Below, in pieces: positions 29,564-48,591 of a stretch of 64,000 bases of DNA. This DNA is from a virus, in the IMG/VR virus record IMGVR_UViG_3300017917_004222, positions 83,840 to 147,839 of that record; one strand, given 5' to 3'. The notes under the pieces are model-generated. The model saw nothing but the letters and a program-made list of their open reading frames with translations, did no database searches and was not told where the DNA came from. The first letter of the stretch is position 1. Each line of letters starts with the position of its first letter. The translations under genes and the position numbers were made by a program.

Positions 29564-30172
29564 ATGAAACCATTTGCAAAATATCTTGCCGAGAGCGAAC
29601 GCACATACGATTACAGGATCAAAATCCTGGGCCGTGTCGGCGACGATCTTGTGCGACAACTCAAACAAAAACTGGCACAATTTGATCCAGTCTCGGTGGG
29701 GGAGTTGAAATCAACTCCCATACAAAAAGTACCTACCGATTTCCCGGGCAGTCAAAACGAAGCAGTGAGCATGTTTGACGTCAAGTTCAAGTATCCTGCA
29801 ATTGACGCACAGATCAAACAGTTGTGGCAGTTGCTGGGCCAGAACCCCAACCACATCATCATGGGCACGGTCAAGCATGCTGAAGGTCTTGCAAAAGAAT
29901 ATCAACGCATCGAAGATGAAAACAAAGACCTGATCAACGATACTGATTACCCCGAACCCGATAGCGAGCAAAAATCACTCAGCCGTGACTATGCTGCAGA
30001 ACCGCATGACCATGTGGTACTAAAAAATGCTTATCGAAGTGATTTCACCATTGCCGGCGGCCGCACTCCTGCTGCCAAAACCACCAATGACATTGCGCAA
30101 GGTACCAAGAGTCCAATGACCAATGTCAAGCGTCCAGCCAAGCCAGCTACTGGCCGTAACCCAAGAGGATAA
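29564..30172 (+). CDS. Internal head/core protein with capsid-targeting-like N terminus
   Basis: 202 residues. The first ten residues MKPFAKYLAE followed by Ser match the form of the T4 capsid-targeting sequence (MKTYQEFIAE then Ala/Ser), which is cut by the prohead protease. The body has a ferredoxin-like beta-alpha pattern (YRIKILGRVGDDLVRQL, TPIQKVPTDFPG, VKFKYPAIDAQIKQLW). The tail is basic with Pro/Lys (NVKRPAKPATGRNPRG). Similar proteins in aquatic T4-like phages are labelled capsid or scaffold. Part of a run of probable core proteins; not recognisably gp22. Confidence 0.6.
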   Translation: MKPFAKYLAESERTYDYRIKILGRVGDDLVRQLKQKLAQFDPVSVGELKSTPIQKVPTDFPGSQNEAVSMFDVKFKYPAIDAQIKQLWQLLGQNPNHIIMGTVKHAEGLAKEYQRIEDENKDLINDTDYPEPDSEQKSLSRDYAAEPHDHVVLKNAYRSDFTIAGGRTPAAKTTNDIAQGTKSPMTNVKRPAKPATGRNPRG

Positions 30173-30177
30173 ACCAA

Positions 30178-32682
30178 ATGTCATTTTTTTACGATCTCAA
30201 CAAAAAACTACAGCAAGTGCTGGAATCCCCCAAGAGCGAGCACAAACAACTGAACGAGGGCTGGAAGGGCGGCGCAGCTGGTGCTGGCGTGGGTGCAGTG
30301 GCTGGCGGGCCAGTTGGTGCTGCCATTGGCTCGGTGCTGGGCGACAAAATTGGCGATGAGCTGGGCGAAACTGGCTACAGCGCCCGGGCAGCCAGTGCTG
30401 GACGAGACATTGGCAAACCCGGCAAGAACTTTGCCAAAATTGCCAAAAGTGCTGGCGAGCGCTACGGCTCTAAAGAACGCGGCGAAGCTGTGGCAGGCGC
30501 TGTGCTCAAGAAGCTGCGAGCCAAAAACGAAGGTGTTGATTCTGACGCTGGCGATGACAACCGAGTGTCCACAGTGGTCCGACTGTTGAAGCGATTGCTG
30601 ACTTCGGAAGCACTACGTGACGCCTACGACATTGGCGAAGATGATGTGTTCCAAATTGAAGAGCTGGCAGCTGCATTGGAAAACAATGACATGGAAGCAG
30701 CACAAGACGCATGGAGCGTGTTTGATGTGAACGAGCTGGACAATGCATTGGACAGTTATGTGGCCGACAATGGGCTCGAAACCGGTTACTTGTTTGACCT
30801 ACTGGGCCACAATGTGAACGAAGGCTCCAAAGTTCCAACAGACTGGATGGGAGTCCCTACTAAGCTGGGCAAAAATGACAAGAAGCCAATCCAGTTCCCA
30901 GCAGGGTATGATGAATATATCAAGCAGGGTGCCAAGCATGGATTCCAAGATGATCCCAACAATCCTCTGCGTAAACGAGTCAAAAAAGCAGGCGTAGCAG
31001 AAGGCCGCCATACTCAATCCAACGCACTGGAACTGAACCCTGACCTCCGGGCCCAGGCCAACAAGCCCACAGTGGCCGGCCGCATTGGCAGCGCAGCCAA
31101 GCGGGTGGCAAACGCCATCACTGGTGGCAGCGATGAAGACGCCAAGAATCGTTTGCTGAACCGCATGGGCGGCCGCCGCACTCCCCTGGCACGTGATGAC
31201 ATGTCCGAAGCCACTAAAGAAATCCCGGGCGGTCGTCGTCACACATCTGAGCCAGGTGGCTACGGTCGCAAGGACGACGACGAAGCCCCCAAGGCAAAAA
31301 CTCAGCGTGGTCGTGGTCGTCCCAAGAAGGGCGGCGACAGCGAAACAGGTGAAGTCAAGAAGTACGACTGGAGCGCATTTGGTGCAACTGGCAAGGATGT
31401 CAAGTTGCCCAAGCACTCGGGTACCGTTACCAAGCACAAAATGAGCGACGAAGAACCCAAAAAGAAAGTCAAAGAAGCCACCAAGGAAATCCCAGGTGGA
31501 CGTCGTCACACTGCTGATGCAGGCGGCTATGGTCGCCGAGACGACGAAGATGACAAGGGCAAGCGAGTCGCAGCTCAAGTCAAACGTGGCCGTGGTCGTC
31601 CCAAGAAGGGCGGCGATAGCGAAACAGGCGAAGTCAAGAAATATGACTGGAGCGCATTTGGCGCCACAGGCAAAGAAGTCAAACTGCCCAAGCACAAGGG
31701 CAATGTTACTCGGCACAAGATGGACGAGGCTGTGAGTGAAGATGATCTTGCAGTTCTTGAACGACTCATGGACCAGGCGTTTGCCGAAGGCAACACTGCC
31801 CTAGGCAATGATATTCAGGGTGTGATCGAGCGCATCCAGGGCGATCAAGACGAAGGCCAATACGATGACGAGCCGGTGAACGAAAAAGCTGTGAGTAAAA
31901 AGCAGCAACGGTTCATGGGCATGGTGCATGCTGCACAAAAAGGTGAAAAGCCTGCGTCAAAAGAAGTGGCCAAAGTGGCCAAGGAAATGCCCAAGAAGGA
32001 AGCTGAAAAGTTTGCCAAGACCAAACAAAAAGGCCTGCCCGAGAAAAAACAAGCCACTGACGAAACATCAGACAGCAAGCCAGCCAAAGGCGGCATGACT
32101 TTTGGCAAGGGCATTTATGACAGCATGAATCGTGAGCTAGAGAGCATGATTGCTGAAAGCATGAGTGTTAACTTGAGCATGAATGATGACGGCCATGGCG
32201 GTCCACGCCGCAGCCTCACAGTGACTGCCACTGACGACGATGCAACCAAGCTGGCTGAACTACTGAAAATGGCTGGCATTGGCGACGAATCATCTGCTGA
32301 GTCAAGTGACTGTGGCTGCGACGAGCTTGAGGAAAACCAAGCCGATTGGCCAACTGATGCTGAAACCAGCAATGATCCGTTCCAGTACTCGGGAGGACTC
32401 AATGGTCCCAAGAGCACAGGACAGACCACTGGTGCTCCGTTCAACCGTCAACCGCAGCGCCAGGGCGCCATGGTAGACGAAGAGGACGAATTGGCTCGCA
32501 TGATGGAAATGGCTGGTGTCAAGAAAGGCAGCAAGCCCGACTATGTTGACCTTGACAAAGACGGCAACAAAACCGAGCCCATGAAGCAAGCGGCCAAAGA
32601 CGCCAAGGAAGACAGTGCAGATCAAGTGGACGAAGGCATCCTCGGCGCCACTCGCAATCTGTGGAAAACCTATCAAGGCTGA
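30178..32682 (+). CDS. Modular internal-head polyprotein with AT-hooks
   Basis: 834 residues, few Cys or Trp. Order: helical leader to residue 27 (LNE|G); Gly/Ala zipper (GAAGAGVGAVAGGPVGAAIG) near 30-60; acidic helical module about 118-215 (VNE|G); basic segment to 275 (VAE|G); tandem modules starting after MSE (residue 344) and VKE (433), each with EIPGGRRHT, an AT-hook RGRGRPKKGG and YDWSAFGATGK; MDE|A at 517; DUF3008-like module (KKQQRFMGMVHAAQKGE) about 565-620; IAE|S at 660; acidic segment; DYVDLDKDGNKTEPM module near 785-800; VDE|G at 819. Bars mark sites like the T4 prohead-protease consensus. DNA binding is inferred from the AT-hooks. Confidence 0.65.
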   Translation: MSFFYDLNKKLQQVLESPKSEHKQLNEGWKGGAAGAGVGAVAGGPVGAAIGSVLGDKIGDELGETGYSARAASAGRDIGKPGKNFAKIAKSAGERYGSKERGEAVAGAVLKKLRAKNEGVDSDAGDDNRVSTVVRLLKRLLTSEALRDAYDIGEDDVFQIEELAAALENNDMEAAQDAWSVFDVNELDNALDSYVADNGLETGYLFDLLGHNVNEGSKVPTDWMGVPTKLGKNDKKPIQFPAGYDEYIKQGAKHGFQDDPNNPLRKRVKKAGVAEGRHTQSNALELNPDLRAQANKPTVAGRIGSAAKRVANAITGGSDEDAKNRLLNRMGGRRTPLARDDMSEATKEIPGGRRHTSEPGGYGRKDDDEAPKAKTQRGRGRPKKGGDSETGEVKKYDWSAFGATGKDVKLPKHSGTVTKHKMSDEEPKKKVKEATKEIPGGRRHTADAGGYGRRDDEDDKGKRVAAQVKRGRGRPKKGGDSETGEVKKYDWSAFGATGKEVKLPKHKGNVTRHKMDEAVSEDDLAVLERLMDQAFAEGNTALGNDIQGVIERIQGDQDEGQYDDEPVNEKAVSKKQQRFMGMVHAAQKGEKPASKEVAKVAKEMPKKEAEKFAKTKQKGLPEKKQATDETSDSKPAKGGMTFGKGIYDSMNRELESMIAESMSVNLSMNDDGHGGPRRSLTVTATDDDATKLAELLKMAGIGDESSAESSDCGCDELEENQADWPTDAETSNDPFQYSGGLNGPKSTGQTTGAPFNRQPQRQGAMVDEEDELARMMEMAGVKKGSKPDYVDLDKDGNKTEPMKQAAKDAKEDSADQVDEGILGATRNLWKTYQG
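31207..31728 (+). repeat. Tandem AT-hook module duplication inside core polyprotein
   Basis: Two copies of an 84-89 residue module (codons from about 31210 to 31476 and 31477 to 31728). Shared words at protein level: ATKEIPGGRRHT, GGYGR, RGRGRPKKGGDSETGEVKK, YDWSAFGATGK and VKLPKH. At DNA level several stretches are identical, for example around the CGTGGTCGTCCCAAGAAGGG block. Each copy starts right after a cut-site-like Glu. Confidence 0.85.
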
Positions 32683-32684
32683 TC

Positions 32685-34328
32685 ATGAAATCATTTCGCG
32701 AACATCTAAGAGAGACACAAGAAACATTTGATCGCCCGGCAACGGGCGATGACTTCGCCATCAACATTCGTGAAGAATGCTTGATCGAAACCTATGTGGT
32801 CGACGAGACAGCCGACGGCATTGTGCTGCATGCTGACGAGCGCATGATGCGATTGCTAGAATCTTACGGTTACGTGCAAGAAGGTGGCGTCAAGGAAATG
32901 TTGATTGGTGCTGCCGAGCGCATGACACTTGATGAGTTCATTGATGCCTACGGCAGCCAGTTTGGACCCGACGAAGCAGAAGAATTCTGGCACACTGTGA
33001 ACGACGAAAATGAAGTTGAACAGTCTGGTCCGGGACACTGGATGCACGAGGAAACTTTTGTTGCGGCAAACAGTGATGGTATATCACACCAGGATGCTGG
33101 CGAGTACGATTACGAAGGCGACATGGCCAAGGATGACTTGAGCACAATCATTCGTGCTGCTCGTCGACTCACAGGCATGCTGGACGACAACGAAAACATG
33201 CCCGAGTGGGTGCAGAGCAAAATCAACAAAGCCGCTGACTATGTGGACACAGCCGCCGATTACATCGAGTCCAACAAAGAACGCGGTGTCATGGAAGGCG
33301 GTGATCCTGCAACTTACCGGGCAAAAGCCCAAGAGGCACACGCCAAATATCTCAAGTACGAAGACTTGGTTGATCAGGAGTTGAGAAAACTAGGTGAGCG
33401 TCTGCCTCGGTCCTGGGATGCCAACGCCTTTCAAAACAAGTTGTCCAGCGACCCCAAGTATGCCCAGGCCTTGAAGTATTACAAACTCAGCGAAAAATTT
33501 GGCGGCCTAGCCGTTCGTTATAAAGAACTGTCCAAGAAGCGGGGCATGGCAGAAGGTCAGTTGGCCAACCCAGACAACCAAGACTCGCCTGTGGCCCGAG
33601 CAATCACACACCGCATCCTTATGCAACACACTGGCCTGTTGGCCAAATACGGCCCCGAGCGGGTCATGGACGCTGTGGATGAAGTGGCTGATTTTGTCGG
33701 CGATGTAGAAGAAATTGGGTCAAGCGATGTGTCGGGCTGGGTGCGTCATGTGGAACAGATGCTGACCAACATGCCCGACAGCTTGGATGAACAATATGGC
33801 GACGAGTTTGACAACGAAGAGGACGAAGAAGACGAAGCAAACGGATTCTACGTGGTAATTGCCAGCGAAACCAATGGCGTGTTTATTGGCCAAGTGATCA
33901 AGGACGGCAGCAAGTGGCGCGAAATGGGCGGGGTTGGTAAACAGCCCTACAGCTGGGGCGGAAACTACATGGGCTATCTTTCCCCGGATGACGTGATCAG
34001 CTGGATACGTAAAGACTACCGCAATGCTGAGGTGGACGGCCCGTTCTCAAGCGAGGACGAAGCACAACAAGCTGCTGACAATTTGAGCGAAGCCAAATAC
34101 CAAGGACGTGAAGTTCCACTAGGCAAACCCATGCAGGGCGATGTCAAGAAGAGCAAAGTCTACGTCCGCGGACCCAAGGGCAACGTGGTCAAGGTCAACT
34201 TTGGCGACCCCAACATGCGCATCAAGAAAAGCAACCCCGAGCGTCGCAAGAACTTCCGTGCGCGCCACAACTGCGACAATCCAGGTCCACGTTGGAAAGC
34301 ACGCTACTGGAGTTGCCGCGCCTGGTAA
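32685..34328 (+). CDS. Modular internal-head protein
   Basis: 547 residues. ATG at 32685 gives MKSFREHLRE, close to the T4 capsid-targeting form. Modules: INIREECLIETYVVDET-type beta domain to about residue 80; acidic helical part; site VME|G at 204; helical DPATYRAKAQEAH segment; MAE|G at 290; VARAITHRILMQHTGLL module 300-360; an acidic linker; a WW-rich module (GFYVVIASETNGVFIG, WREMGGVGKQPYSWGG) to LSE|A at 469; and a basic C terminus (VKVNFGDPNMRIKKSNP, RARHNCDNPGP, ARYWSCRAW) seen in many aquatic phage head genes. Starts two bases after the previous gene. Function: probably a prohead core protein. Confidence 0.6.
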   Translation: MKSFREHLRETQETFDRPATGDDFAINIREECLIETYVVDETADGIVLHADERMMRLLESYGYVQEGGVKEMLIGAAERMTLDEFIDAYGSQFGPDEAEEFWHTVNDENEVEQSGPGHWMHEETFVAANSDGISHQDAGEYDYEGDMAKDDLSTIIRAARRLTGMLDDNENMPEWVQSKINKAADYVDTAADYIESNKERGVMEGGDPATYRAKAQEAHAKYLKYEDLVDQELRKLGERLPRSWDANAFQNKLSSDPKYAQALKYYKLSEKFGGLAVRYKELSKKRGMAEGQLANPDNQDSPVARAITHRILMQHTGLLAKYGPERVMDAVDEVADFVGDVEEIGSSDVSGWVRHVEQMLTNMPDSLDEQYGDEFDNEEDEEDEANGFYVVIASETNGVFIGQVIKDGSKWREMGGVGKQPYSWGGNYMGYLSPDDVISWIRKDYRNAEVDGPFSSEDEAQQAADNLSEAKYQGREVPLGKPMQGDVKKSKVYVRGPKGNVVKVNFGDPNMRIKKSNPERRKNFRARHNCDNPGPRWKARYWSCRAW

Positions 34329-34338
34329 GGAGAAACAC

Positions 34339-34509
34339 ATGGAACATTACAAACCCTACAACCCTGCACCACTCACAACACCTCCGGTGCAAAACCCGCA
34401 CTCGCCTGCTGGCAGCGGATATCGTCAACAGCCAGTGAACATCCCGGGTGTGCTGGACCAAACACGAAACATGTTTCAACCATACCAACCCAAGGATCCT
34501 AACAAATGA
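34339..34509 (+). CDS. 56-residue proline-rich peptide
   Basis: ATG at 34339 follows AAGGAG, 7 bases away, and its stop overlaps the next ATG (ATGA). Sequence is Pro/Gln/Asn-rich (HYKPYNPAPLTTPPVQ, FQPYQPKDPNK) and probably unstructured. Likely a small virion or core component by position. An earlier in-frame start inside the previous gene lacks a ribosome site. Confidence 0.5.
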   Translation: MEHYKPYNPAPLTTPPVQNPHSPAGSGYRQQPVNIPGVLDQTRNMFQPYQPKDPNK

Positions 34510-34793
34510 GCAGTCAAGCCAACGTTTACACCTCGGTCAGCAGCCAAACTTGGTTCACTGACAAAGTTTTGATATCAACTGGCAACACCGCAGTCACATA
34601 CAACGTGGCTCTGGCCCCAGCTTTCTCCGACACCATTTATTCCAATGCTGTGAGCGTGCCGGCATTTGACAGCACCTATGCCTATGTTGGTGTGGGCAAC
34701 AAGCTCACTATCACTGGCAGCAATTTCACAGCAGCCGAAGCTGGCACAGCATCGTCGGGCACAGCCGGTGTGTCGGGCGGCGGCAGCTACTAA
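34506..34793 (+). CDS. 95-residue small beta protein
   Basis: Starts at ATG overlapping the previous stop. Sequence is Ser/Thr/Val-rich with strands (TDKVLISTGNTAVTYNVALA, VGNKLTITGSNFT) and a Gly/Ser C terminus (SGTAGVSGGGSY). Fibre- or decoration-like composition. No family recognised. Confidence 0.5.
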   Translation: MSSQANVYTSVSSQTWFTDKVLISTGNTAVTYNVALAPAFSDTIYSNAVSVPAFDSTYAYVGVGNKLTITGSNFTAAEAGTASSGTAGVSGGGSY

Positions 34794-34799
34794 GGAGTC

Positions 34800-35177
34800 A
34801 TGGTGCGAGCAAGAGAATTTTTAGGCGAAGAAAAGGTTGGAAAAATTTCCAAACGACTGCAATCGGCCACCCGCGGTCTCAACAAGTTTAGAGACCGCTC
34901 ATTCTCTGACCGCGTGTACGAACTGAACCGTGTGATGATGGCAGCCGCATGCAACGACGGTGATGATTTTGCCCATCCAGTTGACGCTGAATCCTGGGCT
35001 GGACGCCACGACATTGCGGCACCTTATACCGAGGTTGAGCAACGCATGCTGGAAAAAGCATACAAGGCTGTTGGATCTTTGTATCAAGACATCAACCACG
35101 GCAACATGGACAGTGAAGAGCACCCAGCTGTGAACAAAACAAGTCCTATAAATAGTTTCAAAGGATACCCAAGATGA
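34800..35177 (+). CDS. Small core-type protein with capsid-targeting-like start
   Basis: 125 residues. MVRAREFLGE then Glu-Lys resembles the Met...FLxE targeting form. The rest contains a module known from several aquatic phage head proteins: YELNRVMMAAACNDG, DAESWAGRHDIAAPYTEVEQ and KAYKAVGSLYQDINHGNM, ending in SPINSFKGYPR. Its stop overlaps the next ATG. Likely an internal-head peptide; enzymatic function is not suggested. Confidence 0.55.
   Translation: MVRAREFLGEEKVGKISKRLQSATRGLNKFRDRSFSDRVYELNRVMMAAACNDGDDFAHPVDAESWAGRHDIAAPYTEVEQRMLEKAYKAVGSLYQDINHGNMDSEEHPAVNKTSPINSFKGYPR
35147..35154 (+). promoter_or_regulatory. Perfect T4 late promoter (TATAAATA)
   Basis: TATAAATA ends 19 bases before the ATG at 35174, with AAAGGA as ribosome site. 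It lies in the 3' end of the previous gene. Confidence 0.7.
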
Positions 35178-35554
35178 AAATTGCTGAAGTGCTTAGAGCA
35201 TTGCTTGATGTTATTGATCGTGCAGAAGTTGCTGGCTCAGTGCCACAAATGCGCAACGATGTGCAGAATCTGTCAAGTCCAGAACAGGTAGAACCTGCCA
35301 ATGTTGAAGACCCGCACGACCTGTTCATGCCCCCTTTGCAAATGAAACTGGAACTGTTGAAAAAAGCAGTGGGTGTGGAAAACGTGTACGATGATGGTAC
35401 CGATGCTGATCGTGATGAATGCAACGAAGTTGGTGATCCCAGTAGTGAAACCGAAACTGACTTTGAAGTGGAATTGAACAACATCAAAAAAGCTGCAGGT
35501 ATCAATCCTGTGGTGCTATCTGATCTTGGCGACGATGAGCCATTGGACAACTGA
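35174..35554 (+). CDS. 126-residue acidic protein, late
   Basis: Late promoter and AAAGGA site directly upstream; ATGA overlap with the previous gene. Strongly acidic (TDADRDECNEVGDPSSETETDF region, shortened here to its theme) with two helical parts: IAEVLRALLDVIDRAEVAG and MKLELLKKAVGVENV; then FEVELNNIKKAAGINPVV. Paired KKA(V/A)G motifs suggest a small repeated helix. Possibly a scaffold or core peptide. No family recognised. Confidence 0.5.
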   Translation: MKIAEVLRALLDVIDRAEVAGSVPQMRNDVQNLSSPEQVEPANVEDPHDLFMPPLQMKLELLKKAVGVENVYDDGTDADRDECNEVGDPSSETETDFEVELNNIKKAAGINPVVLSDLGDDEPLDN

Positions 35555-35559
35555 TACAC

Positions 35560-37050
35560 ATGGCCATTCAGAATTTCTTTACCAGTCGCGACAACAAACT
35601 TGACGGCAACACGTATGTGGGGCAGTTGGGTCGCCTTTGGTACAACCCCGATACCAACAGCATATATGCCAGCGATGGCAGCACCGTGGGCGGAATCCCA
35701 GTAGCGCTGGCCACCAACGCCAACATCTTGGCCAACAATATCACTGTGAGCACAGTGACGTCCACCAGTGGCAACATCACCGTCAACGGCAACTTGGTCA
35801 TCAATGGCAACATTTCGCCAGCCACCGACGTCAAGATTGGCGGCATCAAGGCCGGCCCAGGCGCCAACATATCAAATGATGGCACACTCACGATTGATAC
35901 CACTGGCTTGCCACTCAGCTTTGGCAACTTCACAGCCAACAACAACATACTCACTATTGTCAACGTAGACGAGGACATGATTCTCGAAACTTCGGGCAAT
36001 GCCGAAATACAATTGGTGGGCAACATCGGGTTCTACAAACCCAACGGTGGCGGAGTTCCTGAACCCAGTGCAAAATATTTCTTTGCCCGAGACGATGGGC
36101 AGATTACTATCTTGGTTCCTGTCGAAGACCCATTTTTGGGCGCAGTGGAGATCATAGGATCTTCCACAGGCAATGTTATATCGCCTGGCGCGCCTGGCGC
36201 CATGCTGCATCTCACTGGCAATCCTAGTGTACCAACTCGCCTGTACATGGACGGCAACAACAGCTATGCCAGTATTGTGGGCCGCCGTTGGAACGGAAAT
36301 GTAGCCACGCCCACACAGGTTTTGGCCGGCCAAGATGTGTTGCGTATCAATGCCACCGCAGCCACTGATGCAGGCAGCAGCAATGTGGGCAACGTGGCAT
36401 TTGCTCAAGTGCGTATGACAGCCTTGGAAACCCAAACTGCCGCAGCACAGGGTTCACAAATAGTGTTTACAGTGACTCCGGTGGGGCAGCCTGCTACCAG
36501 TCGTGTGGATGTGGCCAACATCACAGTGGCTGATGGAGTATGGGCTACTAAGTTTACCACCACAGGCAATGTGTCAGCGGCCAATGCCATAATCTCGGGC
36601 AACATTTCGGTTGCCGGCAGCATTCTAGGCAATGCAGTGACCACCACCGCCACAATTGGGACTGGCAACATCACCACATTGAATGTGAGCGGCAACGCCA
36701 CTGTGGGCGGCAACATTCGTTACAACATTGCCAACAACAACGCCACGGTGACTCAGGCCACCAGCAAGGCCACTGCAGTGACCTGCAACGGCAGGACTGG
36801 CCAAATCACCACCAGCAACAGCTCAATCGCCAAGGGCGAAGCAATTACATTCACTGTGAACAACAGTTACATCACAGCAGCAACCGACGTTCCTGTTGTG
36901 GTTTTGCAGTCTGGTGCCACCGCCAACAGTTACTCAGTGTCGGTCACGCGGGTTCAGCCCGGCAGTTTTGCCATCACATTGGTCAACAACGGCACAGGCC
37001 CTTTGTCTGATACCATTGTCATCAACTTTGCTGTGATCAAGGTGAGCTAA
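35560..37050 (+). CDS. Fibre-type virion protein in the head/packaging cluster
   Basis: 496 residues. The first part AIQNFFTSRDNKLDGNTYVGQLGRLWYNPDTN, split for length, is a fibre N-terminal attachment module known from aquatic T4-like phages. The centre has GN repeats (ITVNGNLVINGNISPATDVKIGG). The C terminus (CNGRTGQITTSNSSIAKGEAI, SYSVSVTRVQPGSFAI, VINFAVIKVS) is a knob-like beta domain. It sits between core-protein genes and the large terminase, far from the other fibres, and shares fibre repeat motifs with genes at 1-2095. Probably a short fibre or head/neck fibre (whisker-like). Confidence 0.65.
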   Translation: MAIQNFFTSRDNKLDGNTYVGQLGRLWYNPDTNSIYASDGSTVGGIPVALATNANILANNITVSTVTSTSGNITVNGNLVINGNISPATDVKIGGIKAGPGANISNDGTLTIDTTGLPLSFGNFTANNNILTIVNVDEDMILETSGNAEIQLVGNIGFYKPNGGGVPEPSAKYFFARDDGQITILVPVEDPFLGAVEIIGSSTGNVISPGAPGAMLHLTGNPSVPTRLYMDGNNSYASIVGRRWNGNVATPTQVLAGQDVLRINATAATDAGSSNVGNVAFAQVRMTALETQTAAAQGSQIVFTVTPVGQPATSRVDVANITVADGVWATKFTTTGNVSAANAIISGNISVAGSILGNAVTTTATIGTGNITTLNVSGNATVGGNIRYNIANNNATVTQATSKATAVTCNGRTGQITTSNSSIAKGEAITFTVNNSYITAATDVPVVVLQSGATANSYSVSVTRVQPGSFAITLVNNGTGPLSDTIVINFAVIKVS

Positions 37051-37094
37051 ATTGCTCACTGGGCAGCAGCCCTAGCACACGTTTGGAGATTCTC

Positions 37095-38681
37095 ATGATC
37101 GCTAACAAAGCCAGTTCACTAGAAACGGTATTGGTCAAAACCCCACACCGTCGTGAAACCTATACAGACCAAGAATTGATGGAGTTTGCCCGATGTGCAG
37201 ACCCAGTCAACGGCCCCATGTATTTCATGGACCACTACTTTCACATTCAGCATCCCACACGTGGCAAGATGCTGTATCAGCCGTTTCCGTACCAAAAAAA
37301 GCTGATTGAAACCTATCACCGTTATCGCTACAGCATCAGTCTCATGCCGCGACAGACTGGTAAATCAACATCAGCTGCAGGCTATCTGTTGTGGTACGCC
37401 ATGTTTGTGCCCGACAGCACCATTCTCATTGCGGCACACAAGTACACAGGTTCACAAGAAATCATGCAGCGCATTCGATTTGCCTACGAGCTGTGCCCCA
37501 ACCACATACGTGCAGGTTGTACCAGTTACAACAAAGGCAGCTTGGAATTTGAGAACGGCAGTCGTATTGTGTCGGCCACCACAACAGAAAACACTGGTCG
37601 TGGTATGAGTATTTCGCTGTTGTACGCTGACGAATTTGCGTTTGTGCGACCCACCATTGCGCAAGAGTTCTGGACTTCTATTTCGCCCACGCTGGCCACA
37701 GGTGGTAAGGCCATCATCACATCAACTCCCAACAGTGACGAAGACAAGTTTGCTGAGATTTGGAAAAGCGCCAACAAGTGTCTTGACGAAAACGGCAACA
37801 CCACTGAACTGGGCATCAACGGCTTCAAGGCTTATCGTGCTTACTGGAATGAACATCCGGATCGTGATGAAAAGTGGGCTGCAGAGCAGCGGGCTCAGCT
37901 GGGCGAAGAACGTTTTCGTCGTGAGATGGATTGCGAATTTGTTATCAATGATGAGACCTTGATTTCGCCTATCAAACTGTTGGATCTTGAGGGCGTGGAA
38001 CCTCGATACAAAACCGGACAGGTGCGCTGGTACAAACCATTGTCCAAGGACCGGATGTACATTGTGGCCCTGGATCCCAGCCTGGGCACTGGCGGCGACC
38101 CAGCAGCCATACAAGTGTTTGAAGCTGAAACAACCGAACAGGTGGCCGAGTGGAAACACAATCGAACTGACATTCCCACGCAGATTCGCATCATGGCCGA
38201 CATAGTGAAAGAAATCCACGACGTGGTCAAGGACAGCAAAAAAATCTACTACAGTGTGGAAAACAATACCCTGGGCGAAGCTGCACTGATATCTATTGCT
38301 GAGTACGGGGAAGAAAGCATTCCGGGATACTTTCTAAGTGACAACTCGGTCACAGGCTCGGGAACTCAACGATTCCGCAAAGGCTTTAACACCACCCACA
38401 AGGCCAAGGTCACTGCCTGTAACAAGTTCAAGATTCTTGTGGAATCGGGGCGTATGAAACTGCACAGCAAGCCCTTGATCAGCGAACTCAAAAACTTCGT
38501 GGCCAAGGGCAACAGTTTTGCTGCCAAACCTGGCGAGACTGACGACCTTGTGATGGCCAGCCTCTTGATTATTCGCATGTTGATGTTGTTGCAAACTTAC
38601 CATGCCGAATTGGACCAGCACATCAAAGATCACAATGATGTCATTGTGGAACCTTTTCCCTTTATATCTGTCATGCGCTAA
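37095..38681 (+). CDS. gp17: Large terminase subunit gp17
   Basis: 528 residues. ATPase motor: adenine-binding Q-region near 60, Walker A PRQTGKST (residues 85-92), Walker B LLYADE (175-180). Nuclease: VALDPSLGTGGD with D327, then YSVENNTLGEA near 395 and TDDLVMAS near 495. T4 gp17 is 610 residues. It translocates DNA into the prohead and cuts concatemers. Start at ATG 37095 with TTGGAG upstream. Isolated from small terminase by 7.5 kb. Confidence 0.93.
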   Translation: MIANKASSLETVLVKTPHRRETYTDQELMEFARCADPVNGPMYFMDHYFHIQHPTRGKMLYQPFPYQKKLIETYHRYRYSISLMPRQTGKSTSAAGYLLWYAMFVPDSTILIAAHKYTGSQEIMQRIRFAYELCPNHIRAGCTSYNKGSLEFENGSRIVSATTTENTGRGMSISLLYADEFAFVRPTIAQEFWTSISPTLATGGKAIITSTPNSDEDKFAEIWKSANKCLDENGNTTELGINGFKAYRAYWNEHPDRDEKWAAEQRAQLGEERFRREMDCEFVINDETLISPIKLLDLEGVEPRYKTGQVRWYKPLSKDRMYIVALDPSLGTGGDPAAIQVFEAETTEQVAEWKHNRTDIPTQIRIMADIVKEIHDVVKDSKKIYYSVENNTLGEAALISIAEYGEESIPGYFLSDNSVTGSGTQRFRKGFNTTHKAKVTACNKFKILVESGRMKLHSKPLISELKNFVAKGNSFAAKPGETDDLVMASLLIIRMLMLLQTYHAELDQHIKDHNDVIVEPFPFISVMR

Positions 38682-38684
38682 ATA
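38677..38684 (+). promoter_or_regulatory. Late-type element (GCTAAATA) close to ATG
   Basis: GCTAAATA overlaps the gp17 stop codon and ends 7 bases before the ATG at 38692. No ribosome site lies in the gap, so any transcript from it would be nearly leaderless. Two mismatches make it only a candidate. Confidence 0.4.
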
Positions 38685-38691
38685 ACTGACT

Positions 38692-41600
38692 ATGGCAACA
38701 AGCAACAATATTGGCAAAGATCTCGTGGATTTGCTGGCCACCCACAACTTTGATGTTGAAACATCCAGCGCCAAAAACCCATCGGCCACCCCCGACGAAG
38801 CCACAGTGTTCAAGTTTGATTACGTGAGTCAACACAATCGCAACTACGGCACTGCAGTTATCGTGATTGGTGACGACAATGACCTCATTTTGTTCTACGG
38901 TGACAATCTGGGACGGGGCATGGAACCCGAGGACAAGGACGAATGGTTTGCGTTCATGAAAGAGCTCAAGGATTTTTCAGTACGCCACAACTTCAAAACA
39001 TTCAGCCCCAAAAACCTCAATCAACTCAAGCACACCATGCAAGGCATGGCAGCCATCAAAGAAGGCTTGTTTGAAGGCTACTATGGATCTCGACGGGTCA
39101 GCTACATGGGTCCGGCTACCGAAGCACGACTGGTGATCAATCACAATCGGCTGATTGGCGAAAATGACAAGCGATTCCGTTATATCGAAAGCCTGTTTAT
39201 CGAGACTGTGGAGGGCGAACGATTCCGCTTGCCGTTCAAGCACATGGCCGGAGCTCGAGCCATGCTGGAGCATGTGCGCCAAGGTGGTCGTCCGTATGAC
39301 ATTCGGGGCCAGCACATTGCTGATGTTGTGAACGAGATGTCGGTGTTGTCACGTTTTCGACGTGCGCAACAAGGACGAGTGTTTGAGGGAGTGACACGGG
39401 AGTTGGTAGAGCAGGCCAACCAGTATTACCAGTCGTTGCACACCAATCTCAAGCACATGTCCAGCAATCGCGGGTACCGTTCGTATTTTGAATCCTGGAC
39501 TCCGGCCGACATTGGGCCAGAAGAATCCCTAGTGGAAGATCTGCGAACCATGTTTGTGGAACAAACCATAGACAGCAGAATTGAACAAGCATTGCCTACC
39601 CTGGCCAAGCTAAAAGGAAAAACAATGAAAGAAGCTGATATTTTTGAATCATGGGCCAACCGGTTGACCGAAGGCACTTGGGCACTGCCCGACAATCCCG
39701 AAGCACAAGAAAAGCTCAATCAACTCATGAGCAGTGAGCTGATTGTGGGGCCAGATGCAACCAATGCCACAGAACTGTTGTACGATGTTGTGGGCGACGA
39801 TGAGCTGTATGACATCCTTGACGATTTGGCCGCAAGGAACCCTAGAGCCAACATCTGGGACGATTCTGATGTGATTCAGCGCATGCAAGAACTAGGCATT
39901 CAGCTGCCCAACGGCGATGAAGAACCCAACACCAACATGGATATGCCAGCGCCTGGCGACGCTGCCGAGGTCAGAGAAGGCGACAACCTGGCGACATTTG
40001 TCGAAGGCAGCTGCAATCACACCCGGGAAGGCGAATACTGCCCCGAGCATGGACTCATGGAATGCGGCATGTACGAAAGCATGGGCGGCACAGTGGCTGG
40101 CGCTGTTGCTACTGGAGTGCCGCATGCGTCAGAAGGTGTGGAGGAAGGCTCCGCAAAGTATATCAAGCGCAGCGTGGCAGGTTGGGGCTGGTACGACAAA
40201 GACAAGCCTAAAGATGTGGTGAATAAAGTCAAGGGTCAAGACACAGATGTGCTAAAAAGGCTGCATGAACCTGACACCAAAAAAGGCAAGGGTTCTCCTG
40301 CTGAACTACAACAAAAAGCCATCAGTCGTGAGTTGAAGAGGCGTGGTAAGCAAGGTGTAGGGGAAGCTGAATATGATTCTAGAAAACCCTATGGGGTTCG
40401 TTATAGAGTATTTGCCGGGCGTGACGGCAGATTAACTACTAAAGAATTTTGGACTACCTCGTCGGAAAAATTAAAAAAGGCCGTTGCCAAAATTGAAGCC
40501 TTGGGCAACTTCTACGAAATTGACGGATATAGCTATCCCAAAGAACAGCCGGGCGTGTCAGAAGAATATACGCAAGTTCACGAACTAAGTAAAGACACTC
40601 TGCAATCATATCGTGACCGGACAAAAGAAAAGCGAGCTGCATACAACGCTGCAATCCGGCACGCCGGCGATCCGCCACTGGGCATGACATCTACCCACTC
40701 TAGTGATGAAGTAGACCGGTGGATTAAAAAGTATGATAAAATGGGCGGCGGTATGAAAAAGGCTGCCAACAGAATCAAAAATTTAGATAAGCAAGGCGTG
40801 TCGGAAACCAATGTTGCAAAATACCGAGACCTGGGCGCTACTGCAGACACTACCCACTTTGTCAAGAACGTCACCACAGGCAAGATTGTGAGTCCACATC
40901 GCAGCCGTCAAGATGCCGAAGACGCCCTGGTTGCGTTGCAGCGTCGCCCTGACGGCAACGAATACAAGATTGTTCGTGCCAGAAAAGATGTGACCGAAGG
41001 TGATGATCGTGGCGATTATCACTCTACTGCCCGCGCTGCCGAACAAGCCACAAGGCAAGCCAAGGACCCTGCAGGCCACCGAAAGGCAGCAGGTTTGCAT
41101 GACCGTGCAGCAACTTATGCGCTATCGGCCGGTCACGACAGCAGTGTTGTCCACGATCACCAAATGGCAGCACGGGAACACACCCGAGCAGCCCGAGGAT
41201 TGACTAAAAGCTCGTTGGAAGAAGCCGGCGGAGCAAAACAATACAATGAATTCAAGCGTGAATGGCGTGCAAAACACGGTGCTGATGCCAAAGTTCCCGG
41301 CTATGATAGCCGAGAATATACATCCTACTGCTATCGTCAACTTGATAAAAAGCATGGTGTGTCAGAAACCCGAGCTGATCCCACCAGCACCTGGGTGGTG
41401 TATGACGGCAAAAAAGTTCAGCGTTTCAAAACCCACGCTGGTGCCAAGGCCTATGCTGAAAAGCACGGCGGCAAAGTTGCAAGCTCGGCGCACTATGCCG
41501 ATCGCATCCAAAAGTCCGAAGTAAAGGAAGGCTTGGACATCGAAGCCGCTCGTGAACGACTTGCATCACTGCAGAGGGACCTGAAGGCAGTGACCGGCAA

Positions 41601-42159
41601 TTATCCCGGCGATGATCGTAATCGCATGATCCTGCGCAGGCAAATATTTGATCTGAAGGCACAAATCAAATCAGCAGGCAGCAAGAAATCTGAGGTGAAG
41701 GAAGGCCAACTCAACGAATATCTAGTGAACGAAGGAGAACCGTTTTCTGAGGTATTGAATCTGAATGTGTTTATGGACACCAGCCCAGATGGTCAAGTAG
41801 GGATGGATCATGATCCTCAATGGCAACAACTAATGGCAAAATATCAACCCATTGCCAAACAGTTAGAGCAACAAATACAAGCACTTGACGAGTACGAACT
41901 CTCGCCCAAAGAAGTAGACGCAATTCACAATGTTTGGTATGATGGATCAGACGCCTATGATGACATGGAAGTTGATGTTCTAGCCAGGCTCTACGACCAG
42001 CAAATCAAGTTGGTCAAACGAATGATAACCGTTAGATTGAGAAAGCAAGGTGTGTCTGAAGACTCAACTGACCCCATGGACCATCGTGGTGCTGTGACCG
42101 ACAGCTTCCGTGAAAGTCTGGATCGCATAAAAACTCTGGCACAGATTCGCAAGAGCTAA
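38692..42159 (+). CDS. Large modular internal-head polyprotein
   Basis: 1155 residues. The N-terminal 300 residues form a larger domain (IVIGDDNDLILFYGDNL, IKE|G at 124, FRLPFKHMAGARAML). From residue 314 the chain is a series of modules ending in cut-site-like motifs: MKE|A314, LTE|G327, VRE|G429, VEE|G485, VGE|A558, VSE|E624, VSE|T705, VTE|G769, LEE|A844, VSE|T892, VKE|G946, VKE|G1004 and VSE|D1123. Module lengths are mostly 48-81 residues. A Cys/His cluster (SCNHTREGEYCPEHGLMEC) may bind zinc near 440-465. Many modules are Lys/Arg-rich and suited to DNA contact. By analogy with T4 internal proteins, the prohead protease would cut it into peptides. Confidence 0.62.
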   Translation: MATSNNIGKDLVDLLATHNFDVETSSAKNPSATPDEATVFKFDYVSQHNRNYGTAVIVIGDDNDLILFYGDNLGRGMEPEDKDEWFAFMKELKDFSVRHNFKTFSPKNLNQLKHTMQGMAAIKEGLFEGYYGSRRVSYMGPATEARLVINHNRLIGENDKRFRYIESLFIETVEGERFRLPFKHMAGARAMLEHVRQGGRPYDIRGQHIADVVNEMSVLSRFRRAQQGRVFEGVTRELVEQANQYYQSLHTNLKHMSSNRGYRSYFESWTPADIGPEESLVEDLRTMFVEQTIDSRIEQALPTLAKLKGKTMKEADIFESWANRLTEGTWALPDNPEAQEKLNQLMSSELIVGPDATNATELLYDVVGDDELYDILDDLAARNPRANIWDDSDVIQRMQELGIQLPNGDEEPNTNMDMPAPGDAAEVREGDNLATFVEGSCNHTREGEYCPEHGLMECGMYESMGGTVAGAVATGVPHASEGVEEGSAKYIKRSVAGWGWYDKDKPKDVVNKVKGQDTDVLKRLHEPDTKKGKGSPAELQQKAISRELKRRGKQGVGEAEYDSRKPYGVRYRVFAGRDGRLTTKEFWTTSSEKLKKAVAKIEALGNFYEIDGYSYPKEQPGVSEEYTQVHELSKDTLQSYRDRTKEKRAAYNAAIRHAGDPPLGMTSTHSSDEVDRWIKKYDKMGGGMKKAANRIKNLDKQGVSETNVAKYRDLGATADTTHFVKNVTTGKIVSPHRSRQDAEDALVALQRRPDGNEYKIVRARKDVTEGDDRGDYHSTARAAEQATRQAKDPAGHRKAAGLHDRAATYALSAGHDSSVVHDHQMAAREHTRAARGLTKSSLEEAGGAKQYNEFKREWRAKHGADAKVPGYDSREYTSYCYRQLDKKHGVSETRADPTSTWVVYDGKKVQRFKTHAGAKAYAEKHGGKVASSAHYADRIQKSEVKEGLDIEAARERLASLQRDLKAVTGNYPGDDRNRMILRRQIFDLKAQIKSAGSKKSEVKEGQLNEYLVNEGEPFSEVLNLNVFMDTSPDGQVGMDHDPQWQQLMAKYQPIAKQLEQQIQALDEYELSPKEVDAIHNVWYDGSDAYDDMEVDVLARLYDQQIKLVKRMITVRLRKQGVSEDSTDPMDHRGAVTDSFRESLDRIKTLAQIRKS

Positions 42160-45218: not shown

Positions 45219-45250
45219 TGGTTGTTACTGGTGGGTTTGCTTCTAAGTAA

Positions 45251-45258
45251 TATAAATA
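45251..45258 (+). promoter_or_regulatory. Perfect T4 late promoter (TATAAATA) for HNH gene
   Basis: TATAAATA ends 17 bases before the ATG at 45276 with a TAGGAGG ribosome site between: the best late-expression signals of any gene in the window, on a homing endonuclease. Confidence 0.75.
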
Positions 45259-45275
45259 AACATATAGGAGGATAT

Positions 45276-45965
45276 ATGTTTATTGACAACAAATACTCAA
45301 AGTGCTACTACAGAATTATCGAAAATAGAAAAAATAACCCATTTGATGGTTACGTTGAGCGCCATCATATTGTTCCAAAAAGTCTTGGCGGTAGCAATAA
45401 AAAAGAAAATATTGTCGCGTTGACAGCAAGAGAACATTTTATCTGTCATCGACTGTTGGTTAAGATGACATCAGGAAGAGATAAGATGAAGATGTCTTAC
45501 GCTATTAGATGCTTAGTCAATCAGGAAAACAAACATCAACAGCGTCACAAAATTAGCGCTCGTACATACGCTTCTATAATTTCAATTACAAAAGATAGTA
45601 TTTCTAAGTATCAAGCTGGCGAAAATAATCCGTATTATGGACGAAAACACTCTGACGAAGTTAAAGCAAAAATGAGAGTAAAGCGAGCACTTCAAGAGCC
45701 GCCCCTACTAGGTAAAACTCACTCTGCAGAAACAAAAGAAAAACTTCGCCTAGCAAACAAGAAGCAATTTCAAGATCCGGCACAAACTGAGATGCGCAAA
45801 AAATGCACATTGGAGCAAATGAAAGATCCTTTGCGACGACACGCCGCTGGTAATGGCAAGCGCGGGAAAAAATGGTATTATTGTCCTGTGACAAAAAACT
45901 GTTCTACCTTTTTTCCTGACAACGTTCCACCAGGATATATAGAAGGAAGGATTATTAAAAAATGA
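45276..45965 (+). CDS. HNH homing endonuclease with NUMOD-like repeats
   Basis: 229 residues, A/T-rich. MFIDNKYSKCYYRII then ERHHIVPKSLGG, ENIVALTAREHFICH and KMTSGRDKMKM: same N-terminal half as genes at 16896 and 55255. Followed by NUMOD3-type motifs (GRKHSDEVKAKMR, GKTHSAETKEKLR), which bind the DNA target. Its stop overlaps the ATG of the cytidylyltransferase (ATGA). Late promoter and AGGAGG site are intact, so it should be well expressed. Confidence 0.88.
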   Translation: MFIDNKYSKCYYRIIENRKNNPFDGYVERHHIVPKSLGGSNKKENIVALTAREHFICHRLLVKMTSGRDKMKMSYAIRCLVNQENKHQQRHKISARTYASIISITKDSISKYQAGENNPYYGRKHSDEVKAKMRVKRALQEPPLLGKTHSAETKEKLRLANKKQFQDPAQTEMRKKCTLEQMKDPLRRHAAGNGKRGKKWYYCPVTKNCSTFFPDNVPPGYIEGRIIKK

Positions 45966-46726
45966 AAATTGTACTTTGCACTGGGGGGTACGATCCAGTG
46001 CACTCGGGTCACCTGTCTTATTTTGAAGCTGCACGAGCACTTGGCGATCGCTTGATTGTGGGACTCAATTCAGATGCATGGCTGACCCGTAAAAAAGGTC
46101 GGCCATTCATGCCTTTGAGCGAGCGTCTAGCAGTGATTGGTAATCTACGCTGTGTGGACGAAGTTGTGGTCTACAATGACGATGATGGCTCCAGCTCAGA
46201 CGCCATTCGTGTGGTTCGCGGCAGATACCCCACTGCAGATATTGTGTTTGCCAACGGTGGCGATCGCACTCAGGACAACATCCCTGAAATGAGTGTGCAA
46301 GATCCACGCCTGACATTTGAGTTTGGAGTTGGAGGATTTGACAAACGCAACTCCAGCAGCTGGATTCTGGAAGATTGGAAAAAGCCCCGAACTCCACGAG
46401 CCTGGGGTGAATATCGTGTGTTGCACGAAGTAGGCAGTCATACCAAGGTCAAAGAGCTCACTGTGGCACCTGGTTCCTGCCTCAGCATGCAACGACATGA
46501 CCGTAGAGCAGAGTTCTGGTTTGTGGCCGAAGGTGTTGCTACTGTGTACACGCTTGACTCTGCATCCACTGATGTGGAAGTCACTGCCACGCTGCAAGCC
46601 CACGAACACACTCACATCAGATGCCACGAATGGCACCAGTTGTGCAATGAAACTGACCAACCTCTGCGCCTGATTGAAATTCAATACGGCACAGATTGTG
46701 TGGAGGAAGATATCGAACGCCGATGA
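45962..46726 (+). CDS. Cytidylyltransferase-like domain fused to cupin
   Basis: 254 residues. Domain 1 (1-135): nucleotidyltransferase fold with GGYDPVHSGH (HSGH at 14-17), GLNSDAWLTRKKGRPFMP and FANGGDRTQDN, as in glycerol-3-phosphate, ADP-heptose or choline-phosphate cytidylyltransferases. Domain 2 (about 150-250): cupin of the mannose-6-phosphate isomerase type (KVKELTVAPGSCLSMQRHD, EFWFVAEGVATV, HIRCHEWHQLCN). It would make an activated sugar or polyol and may also isomerise it. Heads the glycan block; ATGA overlaps join it to the HNH gene before and the glycosyltransferase after. Confidence 0.78.
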   Translation: MKIVLCTGGYDPVHSGHLSYFEAARALGDRLIVGLNSDAWLTRKKGRPFMPLSERLAVIGNLRCVDEVVVYNDDDGSSSDAIRVVRGRYPTADIVFANGGDRTQDNIPEMSVQDPRLTFEFGVGGFDKRNSSSWILEDWKKPRTPRAWGEYRVLHEVGSHTKVKELTVAPGSCLSMQRHDRRAEFWFVAEGVATVYTLDSASTDVEVTATLQAHEHTHIRCHEWHQLCNETDQPLRLIEIQYGTDCVEEDIERR

Positions 46727-47409
46727 AACCTATTCCTGTATTTGTTGGCTATGACCCACGTGAGGCCATAGCCTATCACACCTGTGTGAACTCTATTATT
46801 CGCACGGCATCGGCGCCAGTTGCAATCATGCCCCTGGCGTTGAACTTGTTCACAGACTACACTGAAACGCACTCAGACGGTAGCAACCAGTTCATCTACA
46901 GCCGTTTTCTTGTGCCCTGGCTCATGGAGTACACCGGTCATGCCATCTTTATTGATGGTGACATGCTTCTGCGCGGCGACATTGTGGAACTGTGGAACCT
47001 GCGCGATGCCACCAAGGACGTGCAAGTGGTCAAGCATGATTATCAAACCTGCATGCCAGTCAAGTATCTAGGTGCTCCAAACGAGGACTATCCCAGAAAG
47101 AACTGGTCCAGTGTGATCTTGTGGAACTGCAACAGCTACCCCAATCGCCGACTCACTCCTGAGTTTGTGCAGGCAGCATCGGGTGCCCAGCTGCATAGAT
47201 TCACTTGGTTGGACGATGATCGCATTGGCGAGCTGCCGCCTGAATGGAACTGGCTGGACATCGAATACGATGCCAACCCCAACGCCCGACTGGTGCACTA
47301 CACCCTGGGCACTCCGTGCTTTCGAGAGTTTGCCGATCAAGGCAGTTTTGCTAACGAGTGGCATCGCGAACGCATACTAACCGAACACTGTCAACAGAGG
47401 AACACATAA
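46723..47409 (+). CDS. Glycosyltransferase, GT-A fold (GT8-like)
   Basis: 228 residues. PVFVGYDPREAIAYHTCVNSI at the N terminus, a DGD metal-binding motif (IFIDGDMLLRGD, near residue 80) and VVKHDYQ, WLDDDRIGELPPEWNW near the C terminus. These fit the GT-A fold of LPS-type galactosyl/glucosyltransferases. Overlaps with previous (ATGA) and next (TAATG) genes indicate an operon. Acceptor unknown. Confidence 0.75.
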   Translation: MKPIPVFVGYDPREAIAYHTCVNSIIRTASAPVAIMPLALNLFTDYTETHSDGSNQFIYSRFLVPWLMEYTGHAIFIDGDMLLRGDIVELWNLRDATKDVQVVKHDYQTCMPVKYLGAPNEDYPRKNWSSVILWNCNSYPNRRLTPEFVQAASGAQLHRFTWLDDDRIGELPPEWNWLDIEYDANPNARLVHYTLGTPCFREFADQGSFANEWHRERILTEHCQQRNT

Positions 47410-47957
47410 TGGGATATAGTCTTAGAGGTGGCAAGCCCGAAACTGCCAAGTGGTTTGCCGATAACCAAGCCAACATCAAACGAGTATTAGACATCGGTGC
47501 TGGCTCGGGCACATATGTCAAGCTGATCAAGCAGGAGTTTGGTATCTGCCAAGACACCGAGTGGACCGCAGTTGAAGCCTGGGAGGACTACATCAAGCGA
47601 TTTGACCTTGAGTCCTTGTATGACCGTGTGTTGCATCAAGATGTTCGCACACTGGACTGGTCTCAACTGGGGTACTTTGACGTGGCCATTGCTGGCGATG
47701 TGCTTGAACACATGACCAAACAGCAGGCTCAAGACTTGGTTGACCAAGTGTTGAATCATGCTACCACTTTGATTGTGAGCATTCCCATTGTGTACATGCC
47801 CCAGGACGAGATCGAAGGCAATCCGTACGAAGTGCACGTCAAGCCTGATTGGTCACACGACGAAGTCATGGAAACATGGGGTGCAGACATACGCACATTC
47901 TATCGCAAAAGCCCCAAGAGCAAAATTGCAGTGTATTGGTTGTCGCGGCATGCTTGA
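47409..47957 (+). CDS. SAM-dependent methyltransferase
   Basis: 182 residues. Motif I VLDIGAGSGTY (residues 25-35), then ECVEAW-like WTAVEAWEDY, IAGDVLEHM for motif IV and LIVSIPIVY for motif V. Class I methyltransferase of small-molecule type. In a glycan block it may methylate a sugar or an end group. No DNA-target domain is visible, so it is not a DNA methylase of the usual sort. Confidence 0.75.
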   Translation: MGYSLRGGKPETAKWFADNQANIKRVLDIGAGSGTYVKLIKQEFGICQDTEWTAVEAWEDYIKRFDLESLYDRVLHQDVRTLDWSQLGYFDVAIAGDVLEHMTKQQAQDLVDQVLNHATTLIVSIPIVYMPQDEIEGNPYEVHVKPDWSHDEVMETWGADIRTFYRKSPKSKIAVYWLSRHA

Positions 47958-48591
47958 TGTGGTATGTGTGCTTAGGTCAGGAGGCAAGGTAGGCTACTGT
48001 GCCGACTGGGTTCATCGCCTGCAACGAGCAGTTGACCGTAATCTCACGCTGCCGCACAGATTTGTATGCCTTACTGATACTCCAGTTGAATGTGAGTCAA
48101 TACCACTTGCACATGATCACGAGGGTTTTTGGAGCAAACTGGAACTGTTTCGTCCCGGGCTGTTCGCTGGCCCAACCCTGTACATTGACCTAGACACTGT
48201 GATATGCAACAACATCAACGATGTGGTGCATCGGGCCAGCGGCCACGAATTTGTGATGTGGATGGAACCTGACAAAGGCATACACTCCAGTGCACTCATG
48301 TATTGGCAAGGCGATCAGAGTCGCATCTGGGACGTGTATTGCAGTAAACCGTTTGAGTATTGGAAAAGCCTATACGCATCACCGCCGCTGTATGGGGATC
48401 AAGCAGTGGTCAGCGAGCATGTGTCGCATGTGGTGTTTCAGGACATTTGTCCCCCTGAGTGGTTCCACATAGCATCCAAACACGACCATGACATGGATTT
48501 GTCAAACATTCGCATGTTGATGTTCAGGAAAACAAAACAAAAACCATCAACCATGCAGCACCATGCTCTAGTACAACAACATTGGATCTAA
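47950..48591 (+). CDS. Glycosyltransferase-like protein (DLD motif)
   Basis: 213 residues. ATG at 47950 overlaps the methyltransferase end by 8 bases. VCVLRSGGKVGYCADWVHRLQRAV at the start, FVCLTDTP, and the metal-binding YIDLDTVI motif at about residue 75. ENP-type phrase SALMYWQGDQSRIWDVYC and PPLYGDQAVVSEH near the end. GT-A fold. Paralogue of the gene at 51880 (same YIDLDTVI). Confidence 0.7.
   Translation: MLDVVCVLRSGGKVGYCADWVHRLQRAVDRNLTLPHRFVCLTDTPVECESIPLAHDHEGFWSKLELFRPGLFAGPTLYIDLDTVICNNINDVVHRASGHEFVMWMEPDKGIHSSALMYWQGDQSRIWDVYCSKPFEYWKSLYASPPLYGDQAVVSEHVSHVVFQDICPPEWFHIASKHDHDMDLSNIRMLMFRKTKQKPSTMQHHALVQQHWI

Follow-up and report, generated by a model that had tools for sequence, protein, structure and literature searches.

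Predicted prohead-protease cut sites at the borders of exchangeable modules in putative head polyproteins of a T4-related phage

Results

Genes A to D and their N-termini

The stretch of viral DNA analysed here (64,000 nucleotides, referred to as the window; C1:83840-147839 of the 147,839-base virus record IMGVR_UViG_3300017917_004222) contains four genes, all on the plus strand, that carry short glutamate motifs resembling the cut sites of the T4 prohead protease gp21. Genes A (29564-30172, 202 amino acids), B (30178-32682, 834 amino acids) and C (32685-34328, 547 amino acids) sit after a head-closure gene (PHROG 218, E 1.8e-40), and gene D (38692-42159, 1155 amino acids) sits after the large terminase gene (PHROG 36964, E 7e-118). 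A first-pass annotation of this DNA had read the four open reading frames (ORFs), all of which exist as it reported them, as polyproteins for a prohead protease.

Gene A matches PHROG 14802 ‘virion structural protein’ (E 3.7e-5) and begins with MKPFAKYLAE/S (the slash marks a predicted cut, here after residue 10), a T4-like capsid-targeting sequence (CTS). Its orthologues retain MK.F..YL.E/S with Glu at residue 10, and T4 ipII/ipIII begin with MKTYQEFIAE/A. To judge from its sequence, A is one internal-protein-like chain and no polyprotein. The mechanical ORF call starts gene C at GTG 32661 (555 amino acids), but its start is better placed at the internal ATG 32685, which yields the T4-like targeting sequence MKSFREHLRE/T; behind it lie modules 137-212, 299-382 and the C-terminal 478-555 (555-residue numbering). 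The N-terminus of about ten residues with a cut Glu that is typical of T4 internal proteins is found in A and C; the first site of B falls at Glu 16, and D lacks such an N-terminus. Only A fits a small single-domain cargo gene, B, C and D being module chains of 547-1155 residues. Across the N-termini of all loci collected, motif Glu residues peak at ORF residues 8-10 (39, 70 and 54 compared with about 15 elsewhere), which points to many further proteins with capsid-targeting N-termini.

Excess of the cut motif

Counted as [VLIM]xE[GASTD], the motif occurs 19 times in D against 6.3 expected (0 of 2000 shuffles as high) and 12 times in B against 4.6 (shuffle p 0.0005). The excess in C is weak (8 against 3.6, shuffle p 0.03) and A is not enriched, with a single N-terminal site against 0.7 expected from shuffles. 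The earlier claim of repeated motifs in all four ORFs, at a density above that of shuffled sequence, is thus borne out for D and B, weakly for C and not for A. Twelve of the 13 Glu residues that it listed in D fit its pattern; Glu624 lies in GVSE followed by E and breaks its own P1' rule, and motif Glu residues 124, 128, 282, 319, 462, 1014 and others were absent from the list.

Over all ORFs of at least 100 amino acids in the 147.8-kb record, [VLIM]xE[AGS] is in strong excess only in the gp22-like scaffold (14 against 2.45 expected), D (15 against 3.9) and B (9 against 3.0). A classical gp21 substrate, gp22, tops this ranking and so serves as a useful internal control. The excess of L/I-x-E before a small residue is found once V and M are admitted at P3 as well; in the narrow T4 form alone ([LI]xE[AGS]) B is not significant and D is borderline. 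In gp22 scaffold orthologues the offset of the hydrophobic residue peaks at -2 (35%), and the residue following Glu is most often S, A or D; the propeptides of the major capsid protein (MCP) in this phage group carry LLE/S, ALLE/G, VILE/N and YLKE/N. The sites in the putative polyproteins share this form, with more V at P3 (V>L>I>M, compared with L>I>V>M in gp22 orthologues) and more G at P1'.

Glutamate-rich proteins might hold many such short motifs by chance or composition. A spacing control on 48 non-redundant arms of D (the variable part described below), with each Glu context counted once, gave V/L/I/M at -2 plus a small residue at +1 for 21% of Glu. A hydrophobic residue at other offsets gave 4.5-10.7%, the mirror image 9.6% and the same count around Asp 5.9%. 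Around Lys the figure also rises at -2 (14.2%), so part of the motif signal is not Glu-specific. Chance is nevertheless refuted for D and B by the shuffles, the offset and mirror controls, the whole-proteome ranking and the border test below, and as a general explanation it is very improbable; for A it stands against the claim of a repeat.

A gp21-type protease in the head gene block

The head gene block, upstream of the window, includes a gene for an S77 (gp21-type) protease of 213 amino acids (record 75359-76000, G000:C1; PF03420, E 7.1e-24, 80.8 bits against a cut-off of 27), as expected of T4-type gp21-processed head proteins. The protease gene is flanked by a gp67-like gene on one side and by the gp22-like and MCP genes on the other. 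The gene order is that of T4: portal-like, acidic gp67-like (record 74575), S77 protease, gp22-like scaffold (record 76013), MCP (record 77128); names in this block besides protease and capsid protein are read from sequence and gene order. The capsid protein is nearest to those of PA5oct-like Pseudomonas phages (66%), followed by jumbo phages of Vibrio, Sinorhizobium, Xanthomonas, Erwinia, Serratia and E. coli.

Conserved front and variable arm of gene D

Gene D comprises a conserved N-terminal part (residues 1-429, 38692-39978) and a variable module arm (residues 430-1155, 39979-42156) with about 12 cut sites. At least 126 D relatives are present in IMG/VR (counts of relatives throughout are lower bounds). 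Orthologues have about 400 N-terminal residues in common (47-71% identity) and differ in module content beyond, their lengths ranging from 464 to 1391 amino acids and their arms from about 60 to about 990 residues. In the conserved part the cut-motif residues Glu 128, 314, 319 and 327 are invariant in 45 orthologues, and Glu 128, 314 and 327 are at least 90% conserved with PA5oct-like homologues at 22% identity included. An AlphaFold2 (AF2) model places these conserved Glu residues in low-confidence stretches (113-131 and 290-328) between better-folded parts; with a mean pLDDT of 75 and a pTM of 0.40 the model is supportive only.

Family searches gave no link of the D front part to the gp22/gp67 families, and a comparison of this part and of the helical module of C with the PDB, by sequence and fold, yielded no significant match; for the front part, GNAT-like hits were rejected (E >0.1, query template-modelling score about 0.13). 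Sinorhizobium phage Phosso (976 amino acids) is a distant and the sole cultured exception among the long-arm phages found, the others being uncultured contigs. A Cys/His-rich segment, CNHTREGEYCPEHGLMECG (window 40006-40077, D 439-462), is possibly zinc-binding and recurs, at varying distance from the conserved part, in about 35 D orthologues.

Modules are exchanged between genes and bordered by the motif

Individual modules recur in unlike surroundings (related loci are given L numbers). D 706-769 (40807-40998, between GVSE/T and DVTE/G) is found with different flanks in L171, L172 and, at another position, in the D orthologue L085. D 893-946 (41368-41529, between GVSE/T and EVKE/G) has a 68% identical counterpart in an otherwise unlike chain of L156, where the downstream border is QGMAE/G, and D 1015-1123 (41734-42060, containing YDGSDAYDD and ending at GVSE/D) a 33% identical one in a GVAEG-linked chain of L342.

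Gene B has 12-13 predicted cut sites, and its orthologues differ in module content and length. B 216-275 (30823-31002, between VNE/G and GVAE/G) is 77% identical to L091 126-185, which lies between VAE/G and GVAE/G and adjoins the C 299-382 module; homology begins and ends at the cut-motif Glu, and the neighbouring module differs. Residues 345-433 (31210-31476, between MSE/A and VKE/A) and 434-517 (31477-31728, between VKE/A and MDE/A) are an in-frame duplication with a cut motif at both ends and an AT-hook-like RGRGRPKK inside. The first-pass description of the peptides as DNA-contacting fits some modules such as this one; it does not extend to the set as a whole, the net charge of D modules running from +9 to -19. 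B 571-625 (31888-32052) is DUF3008-like (KKQQRFMGMVHAAQKGE; PF11450 E 0.0036, below the cut-off; PHROG 30268 E 1.2e-18), and its relative is a free-standing 69-residue gene, ORF93 of cyanophage S-SCSM1, annotated as a virion protein from mass spectrometry (MS) (PMC9602691). Residues 28-64 of B form a glycine-zipper-like membrane segment (Pfam).

The earlier expectation that modules are reshuffled between genes in relatives was confirmed, the same modules with motifs at their borders occurring in B-, C-, D-class and other chains. Homologues of C 137-212 (33069-33296, ending at GVME/G) were found in 10 C-class, 20 B-class and 27 other sequences. Those of C 299-382 (33555-33806, starting after GMAE/G), a compact all-helical domain (AF2 pLDDT 89), were found in 23 D-class, 9 C-class, 2 B-class and 28 other sequences, and none in the cultured-phage collection at E 0.01. 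Locating this module by sequence alone and removing similar flanks left 46 upstream and 45 downstream contexts. The cut motif is present at 89% of upstream and 84% of downstream borders, compared with about 20% in shuffled flanks and 24% and 13% in windows 20-40 residues off the borders, and the core of about 65 residues has zero motifs except at its very edges. The border residues are variable (GVAE, GLAE, GMHE, IKE, IPE, VIE, LEE), so it is the pattern itself that is conserved. An automatic set of eight module families, the only ones with sufficient unique flanks, gave 66% at both borders against 14-17%; since some of these families come from the collinear front of D, the 66% figures are conservative. 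Modules are conserved as folded units on contigs of widely differing size.

A module of the C 299-382 type is also seen on IMG/VR contigs of 300-350 kb (L091, L100, L140, L159), which are huge phages, and the system is thus not confined to 150-kb genomes. Pfam gave no informative domain in the four proteins and 72 related chains; weak matches to THP2, DotI/IcmL, BRE1 and HcyBio were discarded as chance.

Signal-like segments behind predicted cuts

Motif-rich chains contain 59 unique internal hydrophobic segments, called by hydropathy rules and not by a trained signal-peptide program, 29 of which begin at most 20 residues behind a motif Glu (22% of random positions do so, p 4e-6); under an earlier, stricter rule 19 of 29 lay within 15 residues (17%). 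The closest segments resemble signal peptides, e.g. LDE/GWKSNLAGAAMVGLSALGGAGHAQA, and others are glycine-zipper-like membrane segments (Pfam). There are four internal twin-arginine translocation (Tat) signals (RRGFLRG or RRGFLKG), each of which follows a motif Glu at a distance of 2-6 residues, and Pfam TAT_signal matches one chain. A signal peptide within a chain would work only at a new N-terminus, which makes these segments the strongest indirect argument for processing. For some modules they also hint at a site of action in the envelope of the next host. The Tat signals were seen in L020 (residue 1014), L095 (158), L244 (219) and L420 (464), each directly behind a predicted cut.

The GVAEG linker at the DNA level

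GVAEG is the commonest linker and is conserved even at synonymous positions. GV[AST]E is coded by CAAGGTGTGGCGGAAGG-like DNA in 79 contexts with unrelated flanks; at GVAEG sites Ala is GCG in 65/91 (6% of Ala codons in these ORFs) and Gly is GGT in 88/91 (40%). When viral contigs were scanned blindly for GGTGTGGCGGAAGG, the longest frame reads GVAEG in 93 of 103 among the matches listed; three or four copies occur in several genes, at spacings that are multiples of three. This exact word is absent from the present phage, which has the related AAGCA[AT]GG[TC]GTG at D 705, 892 and 1123. The codon pattern suggests, as its simplest reading, that the GVAEG word is a shared recombination joint. PeSL elements, repeated DNA between genes, mediate module shuffling in T4-type phages; both repeats are tied to shuffling, but GGTGTGGCGGAAGG is an in-frame word within genes that codes for a predicted cut site.

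A joint conserved at the DNA level needs no cut, and domain linkers naturally fall at module borders. B, C and D could on these grounds be intact multidomain proteins with [VLIM]xE as linkers and GVAEG as a recombination linker of no proteolytic role. Most border sites, however, are not GVAEG and lack DNA conservation, yet keep the pattern of gp22 and the MCP propeptides, and internal signal peptides, those of Tat included, are sensible only at a new N-terminus; we consider intact chains improbable. No DNA conservation comparable to that of GVAEG was found at 1025 other, non-GV motif sites, for which reason the motif as a mere DNA repeat was rejected as a full explanation.

Homologues in virions

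The D homologue of PA5oct, EST35_0206, encoded just downstream of the terminase region, is annotated as structural from electrospray ionization tandem MS. Among 118 PA5oct ORFs it ranks first in motif excess, ahead of gp22 and the MCP. PA5oct gp22 is not marked as detected in virions whereas the D homologue is, so the latter does not simply share the fate of gp22. The S-SCSM1 record, with a virion list obtained by MS, annotates ORF92 and ORF93, which hold B modules, as virion proteins; the virion proteins ORF89, 90 and 92 rank first, third and fifth of 53 in motif excess. The virion list of phAPEC6 includes gp205c, beside the single-stranded DNA-binding protein gp204c, which is equated with D from gene order only. 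Bubblegrams of phage 121Q show an inner body like that of phiKZ, and a similar pattern is seen in phAPEC6; both phages have protein bodies inside the head (PMC5646251, PMC7247149).

These data bear on the possibility that B, C and D are disposable, additional scaffold like T4 gp22, gp67 and gp68, chopped to leave the prohead for DNA, with modules that are functionless after assembly. The T4 proteins are cut into multiple fragments, most of which are expelled (PMC9026906), gp22 shows the strongest motif excess here and the conserved part of D itself holds invariant cut motifs. This does not account for arms of about 60 to about 990 residues behind a conserved front, for modules conserved as folded units, some with signal-like segments, or for homologues detected by MS in mature virions, unlike PA5oct gp22. 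We regard a purely disposable core as unlikely, though less so than intact chains.

Other genes

A 125-residue protein (34800-35177, plus strand) beginning with MVRAREFLGE (MRAxEFIxE in orthologues) is probably an additional CTS-bearing head protein. By eye, ORFs at window 45222-45965, 16896-17672, 55255-55878 and 61834-62496 have the look of HNH or GIY-YIG endonucleases (VERHHIVPKSLGG, KYIYLITSPSGKQYIGKS); spread among late genes, they are candidate homing endonucleases. A cluster at window 45962-49348 appears by eye to hold nucleotidyltransferase and glycosyltransferase-like genes, with a possible role in surface or DNA sugar modification.

Discussion

The S77 gene, the motif shared with gp22 and the MCP propeptides, the motifs at module borders, the reshuffling and the virion relatives argue that B, C and D, unlike A, are head polyproteins. 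We think it likely that they are cut by the gp21-like protease and that their modules are partly retained, injected and exchanged border to border; cutting, retention, injection and module function we infer from sequence. C and A would enter the prohead core via their T4-like ten-residue N-termini, and D probably via its conserved 400-residue part. The protease would then cut after the Glu of [VLIM]-x-E/small, freeing many small folded modules, some of which may remain with the DNA and, like the T4 internal proteins, pass into the host on infection, forming a variable payload. The exchange of modules between genes and between phages would be in frame and run from border to border, the GVAEG linker, a near-constant DNA word in relatives, probably serving as the recombination joint.

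Several points weigh against this interpretation. No cleavage product has been observed, and virion detection in PA5oct, phAPEC6 and S-SCSM1 leaves the chain ends undefined. Gene C by itself is weakly enriched and A is not enriched. The sequences are interrelated, and the shuffle-based figures overstate independence despite de-duplication of flanks. The T4 precedent also allows the expulsion of most core-protein fragments. A recognised effector domain or convincing enzyme family was absent from the 38 D arms and 34 module-carrying chains searched.

Parts of such a system are known already. The specificity of gp21 and core proteins cut at several sites have been described (PMC9026906), as have diverse internal proteins of T-even phages that follow a targeting sequence (PMC3012670), propeptides with multiple cuts (PMC10052503) and polyvalent injected proteins (PMC5512222). 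With T4 IPI-IPIII and Alt, the present genes share a targeting sequence of ten N-terminal residues, the last of them a cut Glu (here in A and C), a gp21-type protease (PMC9026906, PMC3012670) and varied cargo behind a conserved assembly part. In T4, processing is inhibited when residue 10 of the IPIII targeting sequence is Asp (PMC9026906). The T4 cargo is encoded by separate genes with an N-terminal cut; in the present phage a single gene can string together a dozen modules or more, every border being marked by a cut motif. T4 gp22, gp67 and gp68 are cut by gp21 into many fragments at the same kind of motif, as predicted here; in this phage, however, gp22-like and gp67-like genes are present separately and the D arm is a swap-prone module array. 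In phiKZ, 201phi2-1 and SPN3US many head proteins are cut after xxE by the prohead protease and long propeptides are cut repeatedly, but the cuts yield propeptides of a single mature protein and an exchangeable module chain is not described (PMC10052503, PMC9026906). Polyvalent proteins are likewise multi-domain and mosaic and are thought to enter the host with the DNA, as we propose here (PMC5512222). They have recognisable enzyme domains, some with their own peptidase; the present chains have small unrecognised domains in place of several disparate enzymatic ones, and would be cut by the head protease. A search of the open-access literature found no account of exchangeable module chains divided up by a prohead protease, an absence that is weak evidence as subscription papers lay outside the search.

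More tentatively, the chains may form a cassette system in which one in-frame DNA word is both recombination joint and head-protease cut site. Phages would build, duplicate and trade chains of injected proteins, some with Sec or Tat signals that prohead cutting activates, sending the peptide to the envelope of the new host. We put this forward as a possibility with somewhat less than an even chance.

Chains of the B, C and D type appear, from the sequences collected, to be common to hundreds of related phages. If the interpretation is right, the head protease of T4-related phages also unpacks a modular payload, which would account for the rapid change of internal proteins in such phages. The pattern [VLIM]xE/small would turn unannotated viral-metagenome sequences into a parsed list of candidate injected proteins, and would provide a sequence rule for finding host-takeover or counter-defence peptides. 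The cultured relatives PA5oct, phAPEC6/121Q and the cyanophages allow a cheap test.

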